Positions 1,569 through 14,739 of a stretch of 64,000 bases of DNA are shown piece by piece. The number at the start of each line of letters is the position of its first letter. The stretch's first letter is position 1. The stretch lies in NCBI RefSeq assembly GCF_000019965.1, contig NC_010571.1:186001-250000 (forward strand), in the 5' to 3' direction. Both the position numbers and the translations under genes were made by a program. Under the pieces are notes generated by a model, which saw only the letters and a list, made by a program, of their open reading frames with translations, had not been told where the DNA came from and searched no databases. The DNA comes from Opitutus terrae PB90-1 (lineage in GTDB: Bacteria > Verrucomicrobiota > Verrucomicrobiia > Opitutales > Opitutaceae).

Positions 1569-1917
1569 GCGAACACTGACGCGCGACGCCGCACGAAGGT
1601 TCGCGAAACGACGGGCGAATCCACCGGCGCCTCCTCCAAAAAAGACGCTGCGCACCGGCGAACCGGTGCGCAGCGCTAACACCCCCGAGCTCAGTTGCTC
1701 AAGACTGCCTCGGGAAATTGGGACGATCGGGGCGAGGAGCAGGTCCTCGGTCGATCGGTGCCGCCGTGGGGGAGCGGATCGGGATGGCGGGGGTCCTGAT
1801 CCGGGCCACGGCGGATCCAATGCAACCGATCTCAGCTCGTAAACAACCGTTCGCAGCAATTTAGCGCTAGCATTAGACCACGGTCCATCGCGCCCTCAGG
1901 CCGGCCGAGATAGCCGC
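1569..1917. other. Intergenic region between aldo/keto reductase and XylR-like regulator
   Basis: About 350 bases without a credible gene. The frame of the aldo/keto reductase stays open through it, but the predicted residues are Pro/Arg/Ser-rich and unlike the family. It contains one strong minus-strand terminator hairpin (1638-1674) and, near 1862-1877, a TTAGCGCTAGCATTAG stretch with overlapping small palindromes that could be an operator. A promoter for the aldo/keto reductase must lie here but no clear -35/-10 pair stands out. Confidence 0.5.
1638..1674 (-). terminator. Intrinsic terminator
   Basis: A perfect 12-bp stem (GCTGCGCACCGG at 1647-1658 and its complement at 1663-1674) with a four-base loop. 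Read on the minus strand it is followed after three bases by six T residues. It would end transcripts of the XylR-like regulator before they reach the aldo/keto reductase. Because it sits only about 80 bases upstream of that gene's start, an attenuator role is also possible, but no leader peptide was found. Confidence 0.8.
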
Positions 1918-3078
1918 TCAAACGCGCGTCAACTTAGCCCGTTTCCTGAACTGCCCAGGCGAGAACGAGGTCATGCGCTTGAAAACCACGGACATGTATT
2001 CGTCGTGCTCAAACCCGGTCATGCTGGCGATGGTTTTCAACGGCAGGTCGGTTTCCAGGAGCAGTTCCTTCACGCGCGTGAGTTGGACGCGCCGGATCTC
2101 CGCCTGCGGCGAGCGACCGATGAATTGCCGGAATTTCTTCTCGATCTGGCTGCGCGACGCCGCGGCATGCGTCACCACATCCTGCACGGTGATGCCGCGA
2201 CAGGAGCGCTCACGAATGAAACTCAACGCGGCCGCCACGTGCTTGTCCGCCACCGCCAGCACGTCGGTGGACAACCGGGTCACGACCCCGAGCGGCTCGA
2301 TGCGCGTGTCGATCGTCCCGAGGTCATCGCCCCGCAGCATCCGGTCCAGCAATTCCGCTGCGTGGTACCCGGCGTGAGAAGAGTTTGGCGCCACGCTGGA
2401 CAGCGGCGGATACGAAAGCTCGCAGCGCATCGTGTCGTTGTTTACGCCCACGAGCGCGATCTCCTCGGGCACGAGCAGTCCGGCGTTTTGCGTGGCGCTG
2501 AGGACCTGAAACGCGCGCACGTCCACGCAGGCCATGATGCCACACGGCTTCGGCAGCTGCTTGAGCCAGCCGATCAGTTCGCGGGTTTGCGCCGCGTTCC
2601 ATTCAGGCGTGATCACACCCGGGTAGTTCACGTCGAGCACCGCGCAGGAATGCCCGTTGAGCTTCAGCGCCTCGACGAAACCCTCGCGGCGTTCACACGA
2701 CCAGCCCTCCTGCGCGAACCCGCAAAACGCGAAATGCCTGAATCCGCGCTCGAGCAAATGCTCGGCGCCGCGATGCCCGATCGCCACGTTGTCCGGACGG
2801 ATTTTCGGCACGCCCGGAAACGGCGGTACGTCGTTCAGGTCCACGAGCGGGATACCGAGTTCGCGACAGGTTTCGACCATCATCGGCGACGTGTGCCGGC
2901 TGATCACGCCGTTCCACCGCTCGCCGCGCAGGAAGCCCGCATCGCGGGCGGTCCGGGCTTCGTCGTCAAGAAACGTGGACCACTGCCGGTGCGTCCGCTC
3001 GAACTGCACGATGCCCTGCAGCGTGCGCGCGGCTTCCTCGAATCGCATTAAAAAGACCAGCAGGATCTTCGGCCTCAT
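1918..3078 (-). CDS. XylR-type AraC-family transcriptional regulator
   Basis: 386-residue fusion of a periplasmic-binding-protein-like sensor (about residues 1-280) to a C-terminal AraC-type helix-turn-helix (about 285-386), the layout of E. coli XylR. The start is the ATG of MRPKILLVFLMRFEEA, matching the first beta strand of the sensor fold; codons upstream are low-complexity. In the sensor, GIMACVDVRAFQVL and EEIALVGVNNDT are typical sugar-binding-repressor segments. The DNA-binding part shows SRSQIEKKFRQFIGRSP and the second helix pair IASMTGFEHDEYMSVVFKR. Such regulators usually control sugar-catabolic genes. No sugar operon is adjacent, so the target is unknown; the beta-helix gene or the aldo/keto reductase are possibilities only. 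Confidence 0.9.
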   Translation of the reverse strand: MRPKILLVFLMRFEEAARTLQGIVQFERTHRQWSTFLDDEARTARDAGFLRGERWNGVISRHTSPMMVETCRELGIPLVDLNDVPPFPGVPKIRPDNVAIGHRGAEHLLERGFRHFAFCGFAQEGWSCERREGFVEALKLNGHSCAVLDVNYPGVITPEWNAAQTRELIGWLKQLPKPCGIMACVDVRAFQVLSATQNAGLLVPEEIALVGVNNDTMRCELSYPPLSSVAPNSSHAGYHAAELLDRMLRGDDLGTIDTRIEPLGVVTRLSTDVLAVADKHVAAALSFIRERSCRGITVQDVVTHAAASRSQIEKKFRQFIGRSPQAEIRRVQLTRVKELLLETDLPLKTIASMTGFEHDEYMSVVFKRMTSFSPGQFRKRAKLTRV

Positions 3079-3205
3079 CCGCCCGGACTCTAGGCGGGCC
3101 CGGTTCGAATATGCAACGCGGACCACACCGCGATCGGCAGCGCCAGGCCGGGCGCGGTGAGCCCGGCCCGGGACCGGCGATCTCGGCTCCCGCCGGACTG
3201 CCGAT

Positions 3206-3598
3206 CTAGCCCGCTGCGAACGTTTGGAACGTCTCCCCGCTGAGATCCGGCCGATGCCGCACCTCGAGCACGTCGTAAAGCTTCGCCAGCTGCCGTTCGA
3301 CTTGCTCAAGCCGCGGCTCGTCGGAGACGAGCAACAGCATGCGGCTGGTCGCCCCGTCGCCGACGGGCACACAGAGGATCGCGTCGAGGTTGAATCCGCG
3401 CCGCGCGAACAGCCCGGTGACGTGCGACATCGTGCCGGGATGATTCCTCACCCGCAGCTCGAGCACCACCTCGCTGGCGTTTGGAGAAGTGTCACGTATC
3501 ACGTGACCCTTTGCTGCGTCGGCAGCGGCTTCGGGTGCGGCATCACGCTCGGCAGGTTCGTGCGATGGCCGCGGGAGGAGGGTGGATGAGTCAAGCAT
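3206..3598 (-). CDS. ilvN: Acetolactate synthase small (regulatory) subunit, IlvN type
   Basis: 130-residue ACT-domain subunit that binds and confers valine feedback on the IlvB catalytic subunit. Residues about 43-115 hold the ACT fold, with VVLELRVRNHPGTMSHVTGLF and FNLDAILCVPV closely resembling E. coli IlvN, and no second C-terminal domain, so it is the short IlvN class rather than IlvH. A 40-residue Ala/Pro/Glu-rich N-terminal stretch precedes the ACT domain and is unusual. The start codon overlaps the last eight bases of ilvB, so the two are almost certainly translationally coupled and share the ilvB attenuator. Confidence 0.9.
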   Translation of the reverse strand: MLDSSTLLPRPSHEPAERDAAPEAAADAAKGHVIRDTSPNASEVVLELRVRNHPGTMSHVTGLFARRGFNLDAILCVPVGDGATSRMLLLVSDEPRLEQVERQLAKLYDVLEVRHRPDLSGETFQTFAAG

Positions 3599-5285
3599 GG
3601 GAGAGGGCGGGTTCGGCGATCATTTGGCGGTTGGCGGCGCCGGGCGGCACCATGGGATACACGTTGGCGGTCGGTTCGATCGGCACATCGATCACGCACG
3701 GTCCATCCGCCGCGAGGGCTTCGCGCAGGGCCTCGAGCGGATTGTCCGCGGGATCGAGTCGCACGCCACGGATGCCGAACGCTCGCGCCATCGCGGCAAA
3801 GTCCGGCGTGGCGTGAAACCGCGAGGCGGAATAGTGCTGCTGGTAAAGCAGCTGTTGCTGCTGGCGCACCAAGCCGAGGCCCCCGTTGTTAAAAATCACG
3901 ACCGCCACGGGCAGGTCGAGCTCGGCGAGCGTGGCGAGCTCCTGAATGTTCATCAGGATCGAGCCATCCCCGCTCACGCAGAGCACCCGGCGGCCGGGCG
4001 CCGCGAGCGCCGCGCCGATCGCAGCCGGCAGCCCGAAGCCCATCGTGCCGAGCCCGCCGGACGTCAGCAACGTGCGCGGCTGGCGGAATGGATACGCCTG
4101 CGCCACCCACATCTGGTGCTGGCCCACGTCGGTCGCCACGATGGTGTCGTCCGGCAGCACTTCGGCCAGGGAGCGGCACAGGTTGATCGGATGCAGCGGA
4201 TCATCGTCGCGGGTGGGATGCACGAGCGGGTGCGCGGCGCGGAGTTCGGCCGCGCGGGCGCACCAGGCCGATCGTGCCTGCTGCGGCACGTGGGCGAGCA
4301 GCCGGCGCAGGATGTCCGCGGCATCGCCCACCAGGCTGAGCATCGGCTGCTTGATCTTCCCGTGCTCGGCCGGATCGATGTCGATGTGAGCGATGGCGGC
4401 GCGCGGACAAAACTCCGCAACCTTCCCGGTGGCGCGATCATCGAACCGCGCACCGATCGCGACCAGCAGATCCGCCTCTTCCAGCAGGAAGTTCGTGCCC
4501 TTGGCGGCGTGCATGCCGAGCATGCCCATGAACAACGGATCGTCGGGCGGCATTGCCCCGAGCGCCATCAAGGTGGACACCACCGGCGCGGACAACCGGT
4601 GCGCGAGCGCGCGGGCCAGTCCCGCCGCGTCCGCCGCGATCACGCCGCCGCCGAGATAGAGGACGGGTTGACGGGCGTGCTTGAGCTGCTGGGCGAGCTG
4701 TAGGATCTGCGCCTCATCGCACGACGGCGCTGTCCTGCGCCCACCCGGCGCCGGCCAGATGCCGACCTCGAGCCGCGCGTTGAGCACGTCCTTCGGCACG
4801 TCGATCGCCACCGGCCCGGGCCGGCCGGACTCCGCCAACGTGAAAGCGAGCGGCACGGTTTCGAGCAGCTCCTCCACCGAATGCACGAGGAAGTTGTGCT
4901 TGGTGATCGGCAGCGTGAGCCCGTAGGTGTCCACCTCCTGAAACGCATCCGTGCCGATCAACGCCTGCGGCACCTGCCCGGTAATCGCGACCAGCGGGAT
5001 CGAGTCGAGCTGCGCGTCCGCGATCGCGGTCAGCAGGTTCGTTGCTCCCGGGCCCGAGGTTGCCAGGCACACGGCCGCGCGCCCCGTGACGCGCGCCATC
5101 CCTTGCGCGATGAAACCGGCGCCTTGTTCGTGGCGGGCAAGCACGTGGCGGATCGTGCCGTCGCCGTCGGTGGAATGCAGCGCATCGTAGAACGGCAGGA
5201 TCGCGCCGCCGGGCATGCCAGCGATCGTGGCGATGCCCTGCCGCTCGAGCAACGTGCGTAGAATTTGGGCTCCTGTGAGATACAT
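3591..5285 (-). CDS. ilvB: Acetolactate synthase large (catalytic) subunit
   Basis: 564-residue thiamine-diphosphate enzyme that condenses two pyruvates to acetolactate, or pyruvate with 2-oxobutyrate, the first common step of valine, leucine and isoleucine synthesis. The start is the ATG of MYLTGAQILRTLLERQG. Visible are the N-terminal TPP domain with the catalytic Glu in RHEQGAGFIAQG, the central FAD-binding domain, and the C-terminal TPP motif GDGSILMNIQELATL ending in NNGG. It overlaps ilvN by eight bases. Upstream lie a leader peptide and a terminator/antiterminator, so expression is probably controlled by charged tRNA for branched-chain amino acids, valine above all. Confidence 0.95.
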   Translation of the reverse strand: MYLTGAQILRTLLERQGIATIAGMPGGAILPFYDALHSTDGDGTIRHVLARHEQGAGFIAQGMARVTGRAAVCLATSGPGATNLLTAIADAQLDSIPLVAITGQVPQALIGTDAFQEVDTYGLTLPITKHNFLVHSVEELLETVPLAFTLAESGRPGPVAIDVPKDVLNARLEVGIWPAPGGRRTAPSCDEAQILQLAQQLKHARQPVLYLGGGVIAADAAGLARALAHRLSAPVVSTLMALGAMPPDDPLFMGMLGMHAAKGTNFLLEEADLLVAIGARFDDRATGKVAEFCPRAAIAHIDIDPAEHGKIKQPMLSLVGDAADILRRLLAHVPQQARSAWCARAAELRAAHPLVHPTRDDDPLHPINLCRSLAEVLPDDTIVATDVGQHQMWVAQAYPFRQPRTLLTSGGLGTMGFGLPAAIGAALAAPGRRVLCVSGDGSILMNIQELATLAELDLPVAVVIFNNGGLGLVRQQQQLLYQQHYSASRFHATPDFAAMARAFGIRGVRLDPADNPLEALREALAADGPCVIDVPIEPTANVYPMVPPGAANRQMIAEPALSHA

Positions 5286-8371: not shown

Positions 8372-9865
8372 TCAACCCGCGGCGCCGAATGGCAGCCGAA
8401 GGATAAACGTGGCGCCATGACCCGGCCCCTCGCTCTGCCCGATCAGGCTGCCGCCCATTTCCGCCGCGGCCAGGGCCGCACTGTGTAGTCCAAAGCCGGA
8501 ACCGCTGGCTCGAGTCGTAAATCCCGGAGCAAAGATGCGCGTCAGGTTCTCGCGAGCGATACCGACGCCGTTATCCGCCACCTCGATCAGTACGCCCCGA
8601 TCGCCATCGGGCCGGACGCGCACGATGATCTGCTTGTCCGCCCGGCTGGTTTGCTCGCATGCGTGCCGCGCGTTGTGCAGCAAGTTCACGAGCACCTGCA
8701 GGATTTTCCGACGGTCGAGCCGCGCGTTGGGCAACGGGCCGATGTCGACGCTGATCAGGACGGCATTCTTCTCGGCCGCGCACGCTTGCACGCGGATCGC
8801 CTCGTCCACGATCTCGGCGATGCTCGCGTTTTCCTCCACGCCCGGGGCGCGCGCGTACGTCTGCTGGGCCGCGACGATCTGTTTGATCCGTTCGACCGCG
8901 CGCTCGAGCCCGGCGACTTCGACGGCGAGTTCCGTCTGCTCCTGGTTGAGATGACGCGAGAGCTCCGCCAGAAAATGCGGCAGTCGTTTGCCGCGATCGT
9001 CCTCCGTCAGGAACTGCGGCAGATTCGCCCGGTGCTGCTCGATGAGATCCGCGGTTCGCGCCAGGTTGCCGAGACGAAGATTGCGCACGCGGTCGCCGAT
9101 AAGCGAGGTCGACACGTTCACGCTGTTCAGCACGTTGCCGATATTGTGGAGCACGCTCGAGGCCACCTCCGCCTGACCCGCGCGATGCGAGGCCTCGACC
9201 AACTGGCGGTGCACGTTTTCGACCTCGCGTTCGACCCGCTTGCGCTCCTCGATCTCTTTCTCGAGCGCCTGTTTTTGCGCCTGCAGTTCCGCCTCGGCCC
9301 GCACGCGCTGGGCGACTTCCTTTTCGAGCGATTCCGCTTTTTCGCGCGCGAGCTGGTAGAGCCGCGCGTTTTCAATCACCAGGGGATCGAGTTTCCTTTG
9401 TTCCAGCGGCTCCTCGTCAACGACCTCGTATTGGGATTCGACTACTGCCCCGTCCGTCGCGAACGACTTGTTGAGCAGATGCATCGATTTGTGGTTTTTG
9501 TCCGCGATGTAGTAGAGGCAAAGGTTCAGGGGACACGCCAGGAAAGGATTGTCGGAGACCTCGTGCAGTTCCTTGTAGGCCTCGCGGCCGTAGAGATTGT
9601 GCCAGACAAAATTCTGCCCGCGTGAGGCGGGCTGCACTTCGAGCTTTTCGCAAAAGCCATTCTTGACGAACAGCTCGGTCAGCCGCGCCAGGTCGTCCGC
9701 CGAGCCCGTCTCTTCGAACGCGAACCCGTGGCGGTTCAGGTAGTCGATGAGCTCGCGCCCGACGTCGCGCAAAATGGTGGCTTGGGCGAAGGCATTGTAT
9801 TTGGCCAGCGTCTTCCCGAAGGCGACGAGTAGCGCCTCATACAAGGTTTGTTTGAAGTTATTCAT
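8372..9865 (-). CDS. Soluble sensor histidine kinase
   Basis: 497-residue kinase without membrane segments. Residues 1-155 form an unfamiliar alpha/beta sensor domain containing CPLNLCLYYI; 160-225 is a charged coiled coil; the phospho-acceptor His is residue 240 in SSVLHNIGNVLNSVNV, an H-box typical of kinases with a HN-GN core. The ATPase domain (about 385-495) shows VNLLHNARHA (N box), VADNGVGI (G1), FAPGFTT (F box) and SGFGLHSA (G2), so all catalytic boxes are intact. No cognate response regulator is adjacent; the nearest is about 4.3 kb away. The sensor ligand is unknown; the paired cysteines might bind a metal or haem, which is conjecture. Confidence 0.9.
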   Translation of the reverse strand: MNNFKQTLYEALLVAFGKTLAKYNAFAQATILRDVGRELIDYLNRHGFAFEETGSADDLARLTELFVKNGFCEKLEVQPASRGQNFVWHNLYGREAYKELHEVSDNPFLACPLNLCLYYIADKNHKSMHLLNKSFATDGAVVESQYEVVDEEPLEQRKLDPLVIENARLYQLAREKAESLEKEVAQRVRAEAELQAQKQALEKEIEERKRVEREVENVHRQLVEASHRAGQAEVASSVLHNIGNVLNSVNVSTSLIGDRVRNLRLGNLARTADLIEQHRANLPQFLTEDDRGKRLPHFLAELSRHLNQEQTELAVEVAGLERAVERIKQIVAAQQTYARAPGVEENASIAEIVDEAIRVQACAAEKNAVLISVDIGPLPNARLDRRKILQVLVNLLHNARHACEQTSRADKQIIVRVRPDGDRGVLIEVADNGVGIARENLTRIFAPGFTTRASGSGFGLHSAALAAAEMGGSLIGQSEGPGHGATFILRLPFGAAG

Positions 9866-10646: not shown

Positions 10647-11576
10647 TTACCGACGGATCGCCTGCACCTCGGCCGTGTTCAAGTTGGCTTTGGTGACGAG
10701 GAAATAAGGCACGTCGAGCGAGGCAGGCAGCGTCTGCCCGGCGAGCAACTGCACCGCCGCCTCAACCCCCTTGCTGCCGATCAACCGCGGCTGTTGCGCC
10801 ACCCAGCCGGCCATGCTTCCATTCTCGATCGCGGTTGCGACCGCGTCGGGCAGCGACGAACCGAACCCGACCTGCAGTACCTTGCCGGCGAGCCCCTTGT
10901 CCTGCAGGGCGCGAATCATCGCGAGGCTCGCGGCGCTGAACGGCGTGCACACGGCCCGCACGTTCGGATGACGCTCCAGCAACATCACTGACTTGGCATA
11001 GTCGTCCTGCTTTTCAGAGCCGGCGACGACGTCCGTATACAGCGTCGCCTGGCCGCGCGCCGCGCGGAATGTCGCGATCAGCGTCTTTTCGCGCACGCTC
11101 ATTCCCTCGATGGAATTCGCTCGGAGCAAAGCCGCGCGGTCGCCGTCCGGCACCAACTCCGCCAGGAAACGGCCCGCGTCTTCCGCCATCACCACTTGGT
11201 TGTAGCCGACGAAAACGTCTGCCAGCCCTTCCGGAAGGGCGGTGTCGAGTGCAACGATCTTCACTCCCTTCGCGCGCAACGCCTCGATCGGCCCGCGAAA
11301 GTCCTCGGGCGTGAGCGGTGCCACCACCAGCGCGTCAATGGGCTCCTTGAGCAGGGCATTTAGCATCGCAAGTTGCTGACTCAGCGAATTGGGCGTCAGC
11401 GGCGCCTTCACGATCACCTCGGCACCCGCCGCGCGGGCCGCGTCCAACGCGCCTTTTTCCGCCGCCGACCAGAACAGGTCGCGGTCCTTCAGCAGGACGC
11501 CGATCTTCACCGCGGCCACGGTTTCGCGCGCCAAAAACGCTGCCACCATCAACAACGAGAGCTGGAGGAACTTCAT
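10647..11576 (-). CDS. Periplasmic sugar-binding protein (type I, RbsB-like), orphan
   Basis: 309-residue exported binding protein. The start is the ATG of MKFLQLSLLMVAAFLARETVA, a signal peptide cut near residue 21. The two-lobed type I fold is shown by VKIGVLLKDRDLFWSAAEKGALDAA at the N-lobe, ALVVAPLTPEDFRG, VKIVALDTALP, and GKVLQVGFGSSLPDAV in the C-lobe, as in RbsB and related sugar-binding proteins. No ABC ATPase or permease is nearby. Its promoter region is shared with a divergent chemoreceptor, which suggests that it could present ligand to that receptor rather than only to a transporter. Confidence 0.85.
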   Translation of the reverse strand: MKFLQLSLLMVAAFLARETVAAVKIGVLLKDRDLFWSAAEKGALDAARAAGAEVIVKAPLTPNSLSQQLAMLNALLKEPIDALVVAPLTPEDFRGPIEALRAKGVKIVALDTALPEGLADVFVGYNQVVMAEDAGRFLAELVPDGDRAALLRANSIEGMSVREKTLIATFRAARGQATLYTDVVAGSEKQDDYAKSVMLLERHPNVRAVCTPFSAASLAMIRALQDKGLAGKVLQVGFGSSLPDAVATAIENGSMAGWVAQQPRLIGSKGVEAAVQLLAGQTLPASLDVPYFLVTKANLNTAEVQAIRR

Positions 11577-11956: not shown

Positions 11957-14002
11957 ATGACGGCCCAAACTAACCTTCTTCGTCGGTTGGGCACCTGGTG
12001 TGCCATCGTGGTGCTTGGCGCCACGACGATGGCTGCGGTGGTCTACGCGTTGTATGTGCGGGGGAACTTGGTGCGGGGACTGGAAAAACAGGTGATTGCG
12101 ATCGCGGTAGCAGAAGCGAACGCGGCGGTGCACAGCCAGAATGTCGATGCCTTGGATACGCGCATGGAATCCCAGCTGCAGCCGGTGCTCACCCGCCAGG
12201 CCCAGCGACTGATCTGGCTGCGCGTCGGCGAAACGGTCGCTCTTTTCATTGTGCTGGGAGGTGCCTTCTTCGCGCTGGCGCGCTTCAACCTGCTGAGGCC
12301 GCTGCGGGCCAAGTTCGACGCGCTCACCGACGGCGCCGCACGCATCCAGGAGGACACCGAACGGATCGCGCAGGACGCGGAGGCGCTGACGTCCGTCACC
12401 GCCCGCGAGGCCGCATCGATCGAGGAGATCGCCGCGACCGTCGAGGAACTCTCGTCCATGACGGAGCGCAATGCCGACCACGCGCGGCAGACCGACGCGC
12501 TCATGGGCGAAACGCGCACGACCGTCACCCAGGCAAGCACGTCCATGCATGGGCTTTTCGATTCGATCGAGCAGATCAAGCGCAGCAGTGCGGCCACGTC
12601 GGAAATCATCAGCACGATCGACCAGATTGCGTTTCAGACGAATATCCTCGCGCTCAACGCCGCGATCGAAGCGGCGCGCGCCGGCGAGTTCGGCGCCAGC
12701 TTCGCGGTGGTGGCGGACGAAGTCCGCACCCTCGCCCGCAACGCCGCCGAAGCCGCCAAGAAAACCGCGGTGTTGATCGAAGGGACCAACGCCCAAGTGG
12801 CGCAGGCCGCCACCTTGGTGGCCGAGACGCGCCAGCGATTCGACGACGTCAATGGCAAGGTCGGCCAATCGAGCGGGTTCGTGTCGCAGATCGCCGAGGC
12901 CTCCGCGGAGCAGGCGCGCGGGATTGAGCAGCTGAACACCGCGATCGGGGAGGTCGACAAGATCATCCAGCAAACGGTCGCCAACGCCGAACACTCGGCC
13001 ACCGCGTCGCAGCAGATGAGCGCCGAGTCCGGGGCGATCAACCAAACCATCGAGGAAGTGCGCACCCTGGTCGGCGTGGAGCACCGCGCGACGGAGGGCG
13101 TTACCGGCGAGTCTGGTCGGATTCACTTGCGCATCTCTGCCTGTTCGCTCGCGGCTGATTCGTTCCGCCAAGCCACCGCGGGAAGACCCGTCGAAGCGAT
13201 CGACGCCTTCTCCGGCAGCTGGGCGAATCGCCCGACGGTCGACTTGATTCTGCAGCTGCAGGCACTGAAAGCGGGCGGGTTGGATTTCGACTACGAACTG
13301 GTGGTGCAGCCGACGCACGGGCGTTCCGTCATCGAAGTGGTTCAAGGTTACTGCGACCTGACCGCGGAGACCGTGTGGAACAGCGAAATCACCGAGCTCG
13401 GCTCCCAGGTGCTCAAGACCGAGAACATCATCAATCACGGCGAGTTCGAGAAGGGCCTGTATGGCCTGCCCGACAATGCCCGGTTGCAGGCGCTCACCAG
13501 CGCGGAACAGCTCGGCGAATTCGTCGGTGCCACGGTGTTCAACTGGTCCGTCGATGTGAAGACGCTGCAGAACATGGGGCTCAAGCGCGTGGACCGCGCC
13601 AGCTGCATGGAGAACGTTTTCCAAATGATCCGCCAGCGGCGCGCCGACTTCACCTTGCTGGAGTTCGCCTCGACGCCAGACATGAGCATCGAGAACCACG
13701 GGGTGAAACTCGTGCCGGTGCAGAACTGCAAAGTGGCTTTGCCGGAAAGTCGTGCCTGGATCATCGCCGCGGGTTCCCCCCATGCCGCCACGCTCCTCGA
13801 GACGCTGCGTCGCGGCATCAAGATGCTGCGCGACCAGCGCCGAATCACGCGTGCCTTCGAGGAGTCCGGATTCTTCCAGCCCAAGGTCATGCATTGGAAA
13901 CGGCTGACGCTGCAGGAGAACCCCGGAGAGTGGCAGGATCGACCTGCCGTTCGCACAACGGCGCGGAAGCTCGAGCCGGTGGCTCGCGGTGCCGGCCGGT
14001 AA
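11957..14002 (+). CDS. Methyl-accepting chemotaxis protein with C-terminal solute-binding-like domain
   Basis: 681-residue protein. TM1 is about residues 12-34, a short (about 50-residue) periplasmic segment follows, TM2 is about 88-109. No clear HAMP domain is seen before the long signalling coiled coil (about 130-375), whose hairpin tip reads [21 protein letters not shown]. After it, instead of ending, the chain continues for about 250 residues (425-645) in a pattern like a family 3 solute-binding protein: [41 protein letters not shown] and a final RAFEESGFF. This part would be cytoplasmic. The start is the ATG of [11 protein letters not shown] response regulator follows and a periplasmic binding protein is divergent. 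Confidence 0.85.
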
Positions 14003-14199: not shown

Positions 14200-14739
14200 A
14201 TGCTCAAAAACGGCACGATTTTGGTGATCGACGACAGCCCCGCCGATCGCGAACTGATCCTGCATTGCATGCGGCTCGCCGGCGTACAGGCGCCGGTCCA
14301 GCTGCTGGGCGACGGGGCCGAGGCGCTGGCTTATCTCAAAGGCCAGCCCCCGTTCGACGACCGGGACCGCTACCCGTATCCCTGCATGGTGATAACCGAC
14401 CTAAAAATGCCGGTCGTCGACGGTCTCGGACTACTTGAGTTTTTGCGCAACCACCCCGAATTGGCCGTGATCCCCACGATCGTGCTGTCGGGTTCGTCGG
14501 ACGCGGACGATGTTGAAGTGTCCTATCTGCTCGGGGCCAGCAGCTACATTGTGAAGCCGCCCACCGCGTCCGAGCTCTGCGATCGGATCCGAACGATGAT
14601 GGAATACTGGTGCCATTGTGAAGCGCCGATCACGACTCGCACCGGCATGCACATCAGGACCGAGGCGCACGGCAAGATCGGCGAGCGCTACTCTCGCTCG
14701 CCCTTCCCCCCCGCGAGGGCGGGGCCGGCTTCGGCGTGA
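14200..14739 (+). CDS. Single-domain response regulator (Rcp1-like)
   Basis: 179 residues; a CheY-like receiver covers about 5-135. Acidic pocket IDDSP, phospho-acceptor Asp in MVITDLKMPVVDG, the Thr/Ser in PTIVLSGSS and the Lys in SYIVKPP are all present. The insert with RYPYPCMV before the acceptor strand is typical of Rcp1-type receivers. There is no output domain; the last 45 residues are low-complexity. It follows the chemoreceptor gene by 200 bases on the same strand and may work with it or with a phytochrome-like or soluble kinase elsewhere. Confidence 0.88.
   Translation: MLKNGTILVIDDSPADRELILHCMRLAGVQAPVQLLGDGAEALAYLKGQPPFDDRDRYPYPCMVITDLKMPVVDGLGLLEFLRNHPELAVIPTIVLSGSSDADDVEVSYLLGASSYIVKPPTASELCDRIRTMMEYWCHCEAPITTRTGMHIRTEAHGKIGERYSRSPFPPARAGPASA

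Follow-up and report, generated by a model that had tools for sequence, protein, structure and literature searches.

The window, the whole stretch of 64,000 nucleotides of Opitutus terrae PB90-1 that was analysed, encodes a chemoreceptor that appears to be anchored in the membrane and whose main sensor would be a cytosolic C-terminal domain derived from an exported type-2 solute-binding protein, a reading to which we assign a probability of roughly 0.6. Such a receptor may steer swimming by something that is sensed inside the cell.

Architecture and conservation of the receptor

The receptor is encoded by a single reading frame without internal stops. Its parts are listed below; identities refer to the fused relative in G023, an uncultured Opitutaceae MAG of another genus.

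11957-14002, + strand: chemoreceptor gene, 681 aa plus stop codon (ORF translation, Pfam)
12002-12058, + strand: transmembrane segment 1, residues 16-34 (hydropathy)
12224-12280, + strand: transmembrane segment 2, residues 90-108 (hydropathy)
12341-13072, + strand: signalling hairpin, residues 129-372 (Pfam and alignment; limits set by eye)
12410-12439, + strand: methylation-site consensus, residues 152-161 (motif match)
12512-12964, + strand: MCPsignal, residues 186-336 (Pfam)
12635-12688, + strand: hairpin tip of 18 residues, 227-244 (standard tip pattern)
13073-13114, + strand: variable linker, residues 373-386 (1/14 identical to the G023 relative)
13115-13912, + strand: C-terminal solute-binding-protein-like domain, residues 387-652 (relatives, profile comparison)
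13913-13999, + strand: poorly conserved tail, residues 653-681 (8/22 aligned residues identical to G023)

MCPsignal is recognised with an E-value of 4.1e-38 and 131.4 bits (cut-off 34.6), and the remaining Pfam matches of the whole receptor are to coiled-coil-type models, all below their cut-offs. No HAMP domain was found after the second transmembrane segment in the Pfam search at E-values up to 10; a HAMP domain in this place is usual, but not obligatory, in methyl-accepting chemotaxis proteins. Residues 152-161 match the methylation-site consensus and are presumably a methylation site, and a ten-residue match to this consensus is also present in the G023 relative.

Hydropathy gives a periplasmic loop of about 55 residues between the transmembrane segments, in good agreement with the approximately 50 residues of the original prediction. 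Beyond residue 346, the best 19-residue hydropathy mean is 0.73, and no segment reaches the threshold of 1.5 set for a membrane segment, which places the C-terminal domain putatively on the cytosolic side. The predicted order of a signalling hairpin and an extra C-terminal domain is borne out by the positions of MCPsignal and the conserved region; the domain itself is real, but its limits are better drawn at residues 387-652 than at 400-681.

The fused gene of G023 is full-length (632 residues) and has the same parts in the same order. The signalling part is identical at 161/244 positions and the C-terminal domain at 151/266 (57%), as opposed to 19 of the 60 aligned residues in the N-terminal region. 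The outer loop of the G023 receptor comprises only about 14 residues (hydropathy, alignment), and hydropathy gives only a borderline value for its second membrane segment (1.45, with the threshold at 1.5); after the hairpin, the best mean is 1.24, again below 1.5. The genes that flank the fused receptor differ between the window and G023. That the reading frame of the window is the product of a frame error or a misassembly that joined two genes is extremely improbable, since the same fusion occurs in an independent assembly among different flanking genes; a joining frame error, the possibility left open by the original prediction, is contradicted by the full-length gene of G023 and is excluded.

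The two fused receptors are most likely one orthologous gene that goes back to one ancestral fusion, because in the comparison with paralogues the signalling part of the window receptor shares 68% identity over 233 residues with that of G023 and only 36-48% over 196-243 residues with 11 paralogues of its own genome (a twelfth reaches 60%, but over 50 residues only).

A gene for a type-1 periplasmic sugar-binding protein (Peripla_BP_4; 10647-11576, - strand) is oriented divergently from the receptor gene, with 380 bp between the starts. A HATPase_c protein is encoded at 8372-9865 on the - strand, with no match to HisKA in Pfam at E-values up to 0.001, and a response regulator with Response_reg as its sole Pfam domain at 14200-14739 on the + strand, some 200 bp beyond the end of the receptor gene. 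Scans of five neighbouring proteins of the window revealed no transporter gene.

Relationship of the C-terminal domain to solute-binding proteins

Direct searches do not identify the C-terminal domain. On its own it matches no Pfam family at E-values up to 10, SBP_bac_3 (PF00497) included; the whole receptor has no match of the solute-binding-protein type in Pfam or NCBIfam, and sequence searches of PDB chains gave no convincing match and none of this type. AlphaFold models were poor, with a pLDDT of 44.7 for the whole receptor alone and 33.8 for the domain with one relative. The latter model, which is too low in confidence for a meaningful comparison, yielded no solute-binding protein among its 45 Foldseek matches and no match with an E-value up to 0.001.

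The relationship emerges through intermediates. Among 72,556 plasmid records, a single protein matches the domain, namely WP_268076808.1 of Catenovulum adriaticum, which covers 98% of the query with 28% identity (E 9e-26). It is annotated as a hypothetical protein of 289 residues, stands alone, and begins with what by eye resembles a signal sequence containing a cysteine, which suggests that it is exported. Near its gene on the plasmid, separated by a glutathione S-transferase gene, lies a gene for a hybrid sensor kinase (1875-4985 of locus L024), a possible signalling partner of the protein.

WP_268076808.1 has, in its turn, weak matches to three proteins of Salinivibrio (E 4e-3, 6e-3, and 0.1), all of which score as SBP_bac_3 at 3.5e-18 or better, and a profile built from these four proteins recovers solved glutamine and amino-acid binding proteins with a best E-value of 3e-9. 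When the domain family (three rows: the two receptors and the Catenovulum protein) was compared with the Salinivibrio proteins profile to profile, the match scored 96% over 202 columns, whereas none of 200 column shuffles exceeded 7.1%. This result is favoured by the choice of the Salinivibrio proteins, which were selected for matching one of the rows. Omission of the Catenovulum row lowered the signal but did not remove it (40.6% over 124 columns; at most 2.0% in 200 shuffles). The three-row family gave no profile match with 18 ordinary SBP_bac_3 domains from the same bacterial family (0.5%); when these were pooled with the Salinivibrio rows, the score was 36.6%, restricted to the second lobe, with at most 0.73% in 50 shuffles.

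Together, these comparisons support a descent of the C-terminal domain from type-2 solute-binding proteins. The negative direct searches, the lack of a profile match with the 18 ordinary domains, and the poor structure predictions would also be expected if the domain had a different fold and its likeness to family 3 were a product of chance, built up through weak intermediate matches. This we regard as distinctly unlikely, because the collinear match over 202 columns far exceeds all 200 shuffles and some signal remains when the linking row is left out. The resemblance to family 3 solute-binding proteins proposed in the original prediction is thus supported by way of intermediates and profile comparison, but neither by a direct HMM match nor by a predicted fold.

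Distribution of the fusion and other receptors of the genome

The fusion is rare. Among 252 genomes of the family, the two-row profile found matches at E-values up to 0.1 in 18, but only two are convincing, that of the window genome (3.9e-169) and that of G023 (1.2e-167), so that the order of signalling and solute-binding-like domain proposed for the window receptor recurs in G023. The remaining 16 matches have E-values of 0.0018-0.09; five of their loci (L007, L008, L017, L018, and L020) contain neither a gene resembling a solute-binding protein nor a second fusion, as judged by eye, and a second match in the window's own genome (E 0.124; L002) looked unrelated. A single-protein search of 95 genomes likewise returned the window genome and G023 alone; the only other genome of the same genus among those 95 (G001) was without a match.

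In wider samples, only the window's own gene was found: in 1/387 genomes of the phylum (two-row profile, E up to 0.01), 1/372 of the order, and 1/384 of the class (both three-row profile, E up to 0.001), samples that overlap and into which G023 was evidently not drawn. Three scans of the viral collection gave no confirmed match, and the phages none at all; in the contig collection, the single-protein query found nothing and the alignment query only the contig of G023. Inspection by eye of 100 genomes revealed no case of PF00497 and PF00015 close together on one contig among the matches listed at E-values up to 1e-10.

The window receptor also stands apart from the other receptors of its genome in the length of its C-terminal part, which extends 437 residues beyond the hairpin tip, compared with 170-217 residues in 11 of the 12 other receptor frames with the tip pattern and 358 in one; two further frames (624 aa and 536 aa) of the 14 besides that of the window lack the tip pattern and were not counted, and the PF00015 match of the 536-aa frame is below the cut-off. 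The frame with 358 residues after the tip (707 aa; L071, G000:C1:3760500-3767500) has no membrane segment by hydropathy and a second, partial MCPsignal match. The only PF00497 match of the genome is a 744-aa frame (L072, G000:C1:892000-900000), which lies about 2 kb from the below-cut-off MCPsignal of the 536-aa frame and on the same strand.

Proposed mode of sensing and comparison with known receptors

The conservation pattern makes the C-terminal domain, rather than the outer loop, the conserved candidate for the sensor. Since the sole fused relative found has kept the domain but has a loop of only about 14 residues instead of about 55, it is reasonable to infer that this putative sensor responds to an intracellular ligand. 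The receptor would be held in the membrane by its two transmembrane segments, and the C-terminal domain would be located at the membrane-proximal end of the hairpin, to which its C-terminal strand runs back. There it may close on a small intracellular molecule; since the chain leaves the hairpin at this end, closure would move the C-terminal methylation helix and alter the activity of CheA, in line with the known anatomy of such receptors.

In SBP_bac_3 proteins, the arginine of a TPER-like block usually holds the carboxylate of the ligand and is the usual mark of amino-acid binding. The corresponding column contains T, A, and E in the three domain sequences (by eye, in a region where the alignment is uncertain), and the G023 domain has an arginine one column beyond the expected position. 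Because the usual carboxylate-binding arginine is missing from the expected column, the ligand is probably not an ordinary alpha-amino acid. The blocks ETVW and EFEK and an SR pair do not differ between the cytosolic and exported versions of the domain (three sequences), which suggests that a pocket was kept rather than a new surface formed. The domain could represent an exported binding protein that was captured, with its pocket intact, as the cytosolic sensor of a membrane chemoreceptor. The cell would then steer according to the intracellular level of a molecule which the relatives still sense or bind outside; we put this forward tentatively, at somewhat less than even odds. If true, external and internal forms of a single binding domain coexist in nature.

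The lack of the signature arginine at its column in all three sequences (by eye) and a cytosolic position that removes the domain from its usual ligands would also fit a domain that derives from a solute-binding protein but has ceased to bind small ligands and serves in protein docking or localisation, with sensing achieved by other means. The invariance of the same motifs on both sides of the membrane argues against such a loss of binding, which we consider unlikely. Sensing might also take place outside, through the small periplasmic loop and perhaps with the help of the type-1 sugar-binding protein, leaving the C-terminal part as an accessory. The gene of this protein is divergent, with its start 380 bp from that of the receptor gene, and binding proteins are known as activators of chemoreceptors (PMC9602780); nevertheless, the loop of only about 14 residues in G023 and the location of the closest G023 homologue of the binding protein (41%) on another contig render external sensing very unlikely. 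The window receptor offers a clean test of whether receptors of this kind read metabolism inside the cell, because in it a tiny outer loop is combined with a conserved inner domain of the binding type that has an apparently exported counterpart.

Ligand domains in C-terminal extensions characterise a poorly characterised subfamily of chemoreceptors with at least 17 Pfam types, among which CZB is by far the most populated (PMC7390727); TlpD carries its CZB domain at the C-terminus (PMC8262984). Pfam profiles of solute-binding proteins are also reported from cytosolic proteins and from the sensor domains of signalling systems in the cytosol (PMC9602780). The view of the original prediction that such domains are normally periplasmic and N-terminal is therefore too strong. 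The SBP_bac_3 domains of c-di-GMP proteins are treated as periplasmic in PMC8846402. Receptors with C-terminal domains appear in a survey of archaea, which lists SBP_bac domains apart from them (PMC9680633). A cytosolic solute-binding-type domain at the C-terminus of a methyl-accepting chemotaxis protein was not found described in the portions of the literature available, and SBP_bac_3 may be among the 17 types of PMC7390727.

The fused receptor, conserved between two genera, is thus not categorically new but a plausible new variant of the chemoreceptors with C-terminal sensors. It shares with methyl-accepting chemotaxis proteins the MCPsignal domain, the methylation consensus, and an outer loop flanked by two transmembrane segments, and with the CZB-type receptors such as TlpD the position of the putative sensor after the signalling domain, here as a separate conserved domain that its topology places on the cytosolic side; unlike theirs, this domain matches no Pfam family. 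It resembles three Salinivibrio members of SBP_bac_3 over about 200 profile columns but differs from that family in that it is below Pfam detection, lacks the signature arginine at the expected column, and is fused and apparently cytosolic: export, a trait of SBP_bac_3, appears to be absent from a domain that follows a cytosolic hairpin without an intervening membrane segment. The Catenovulum protein WP_268076808.1 corresponds to almost the entire domain but stands alone and is apparently exported.
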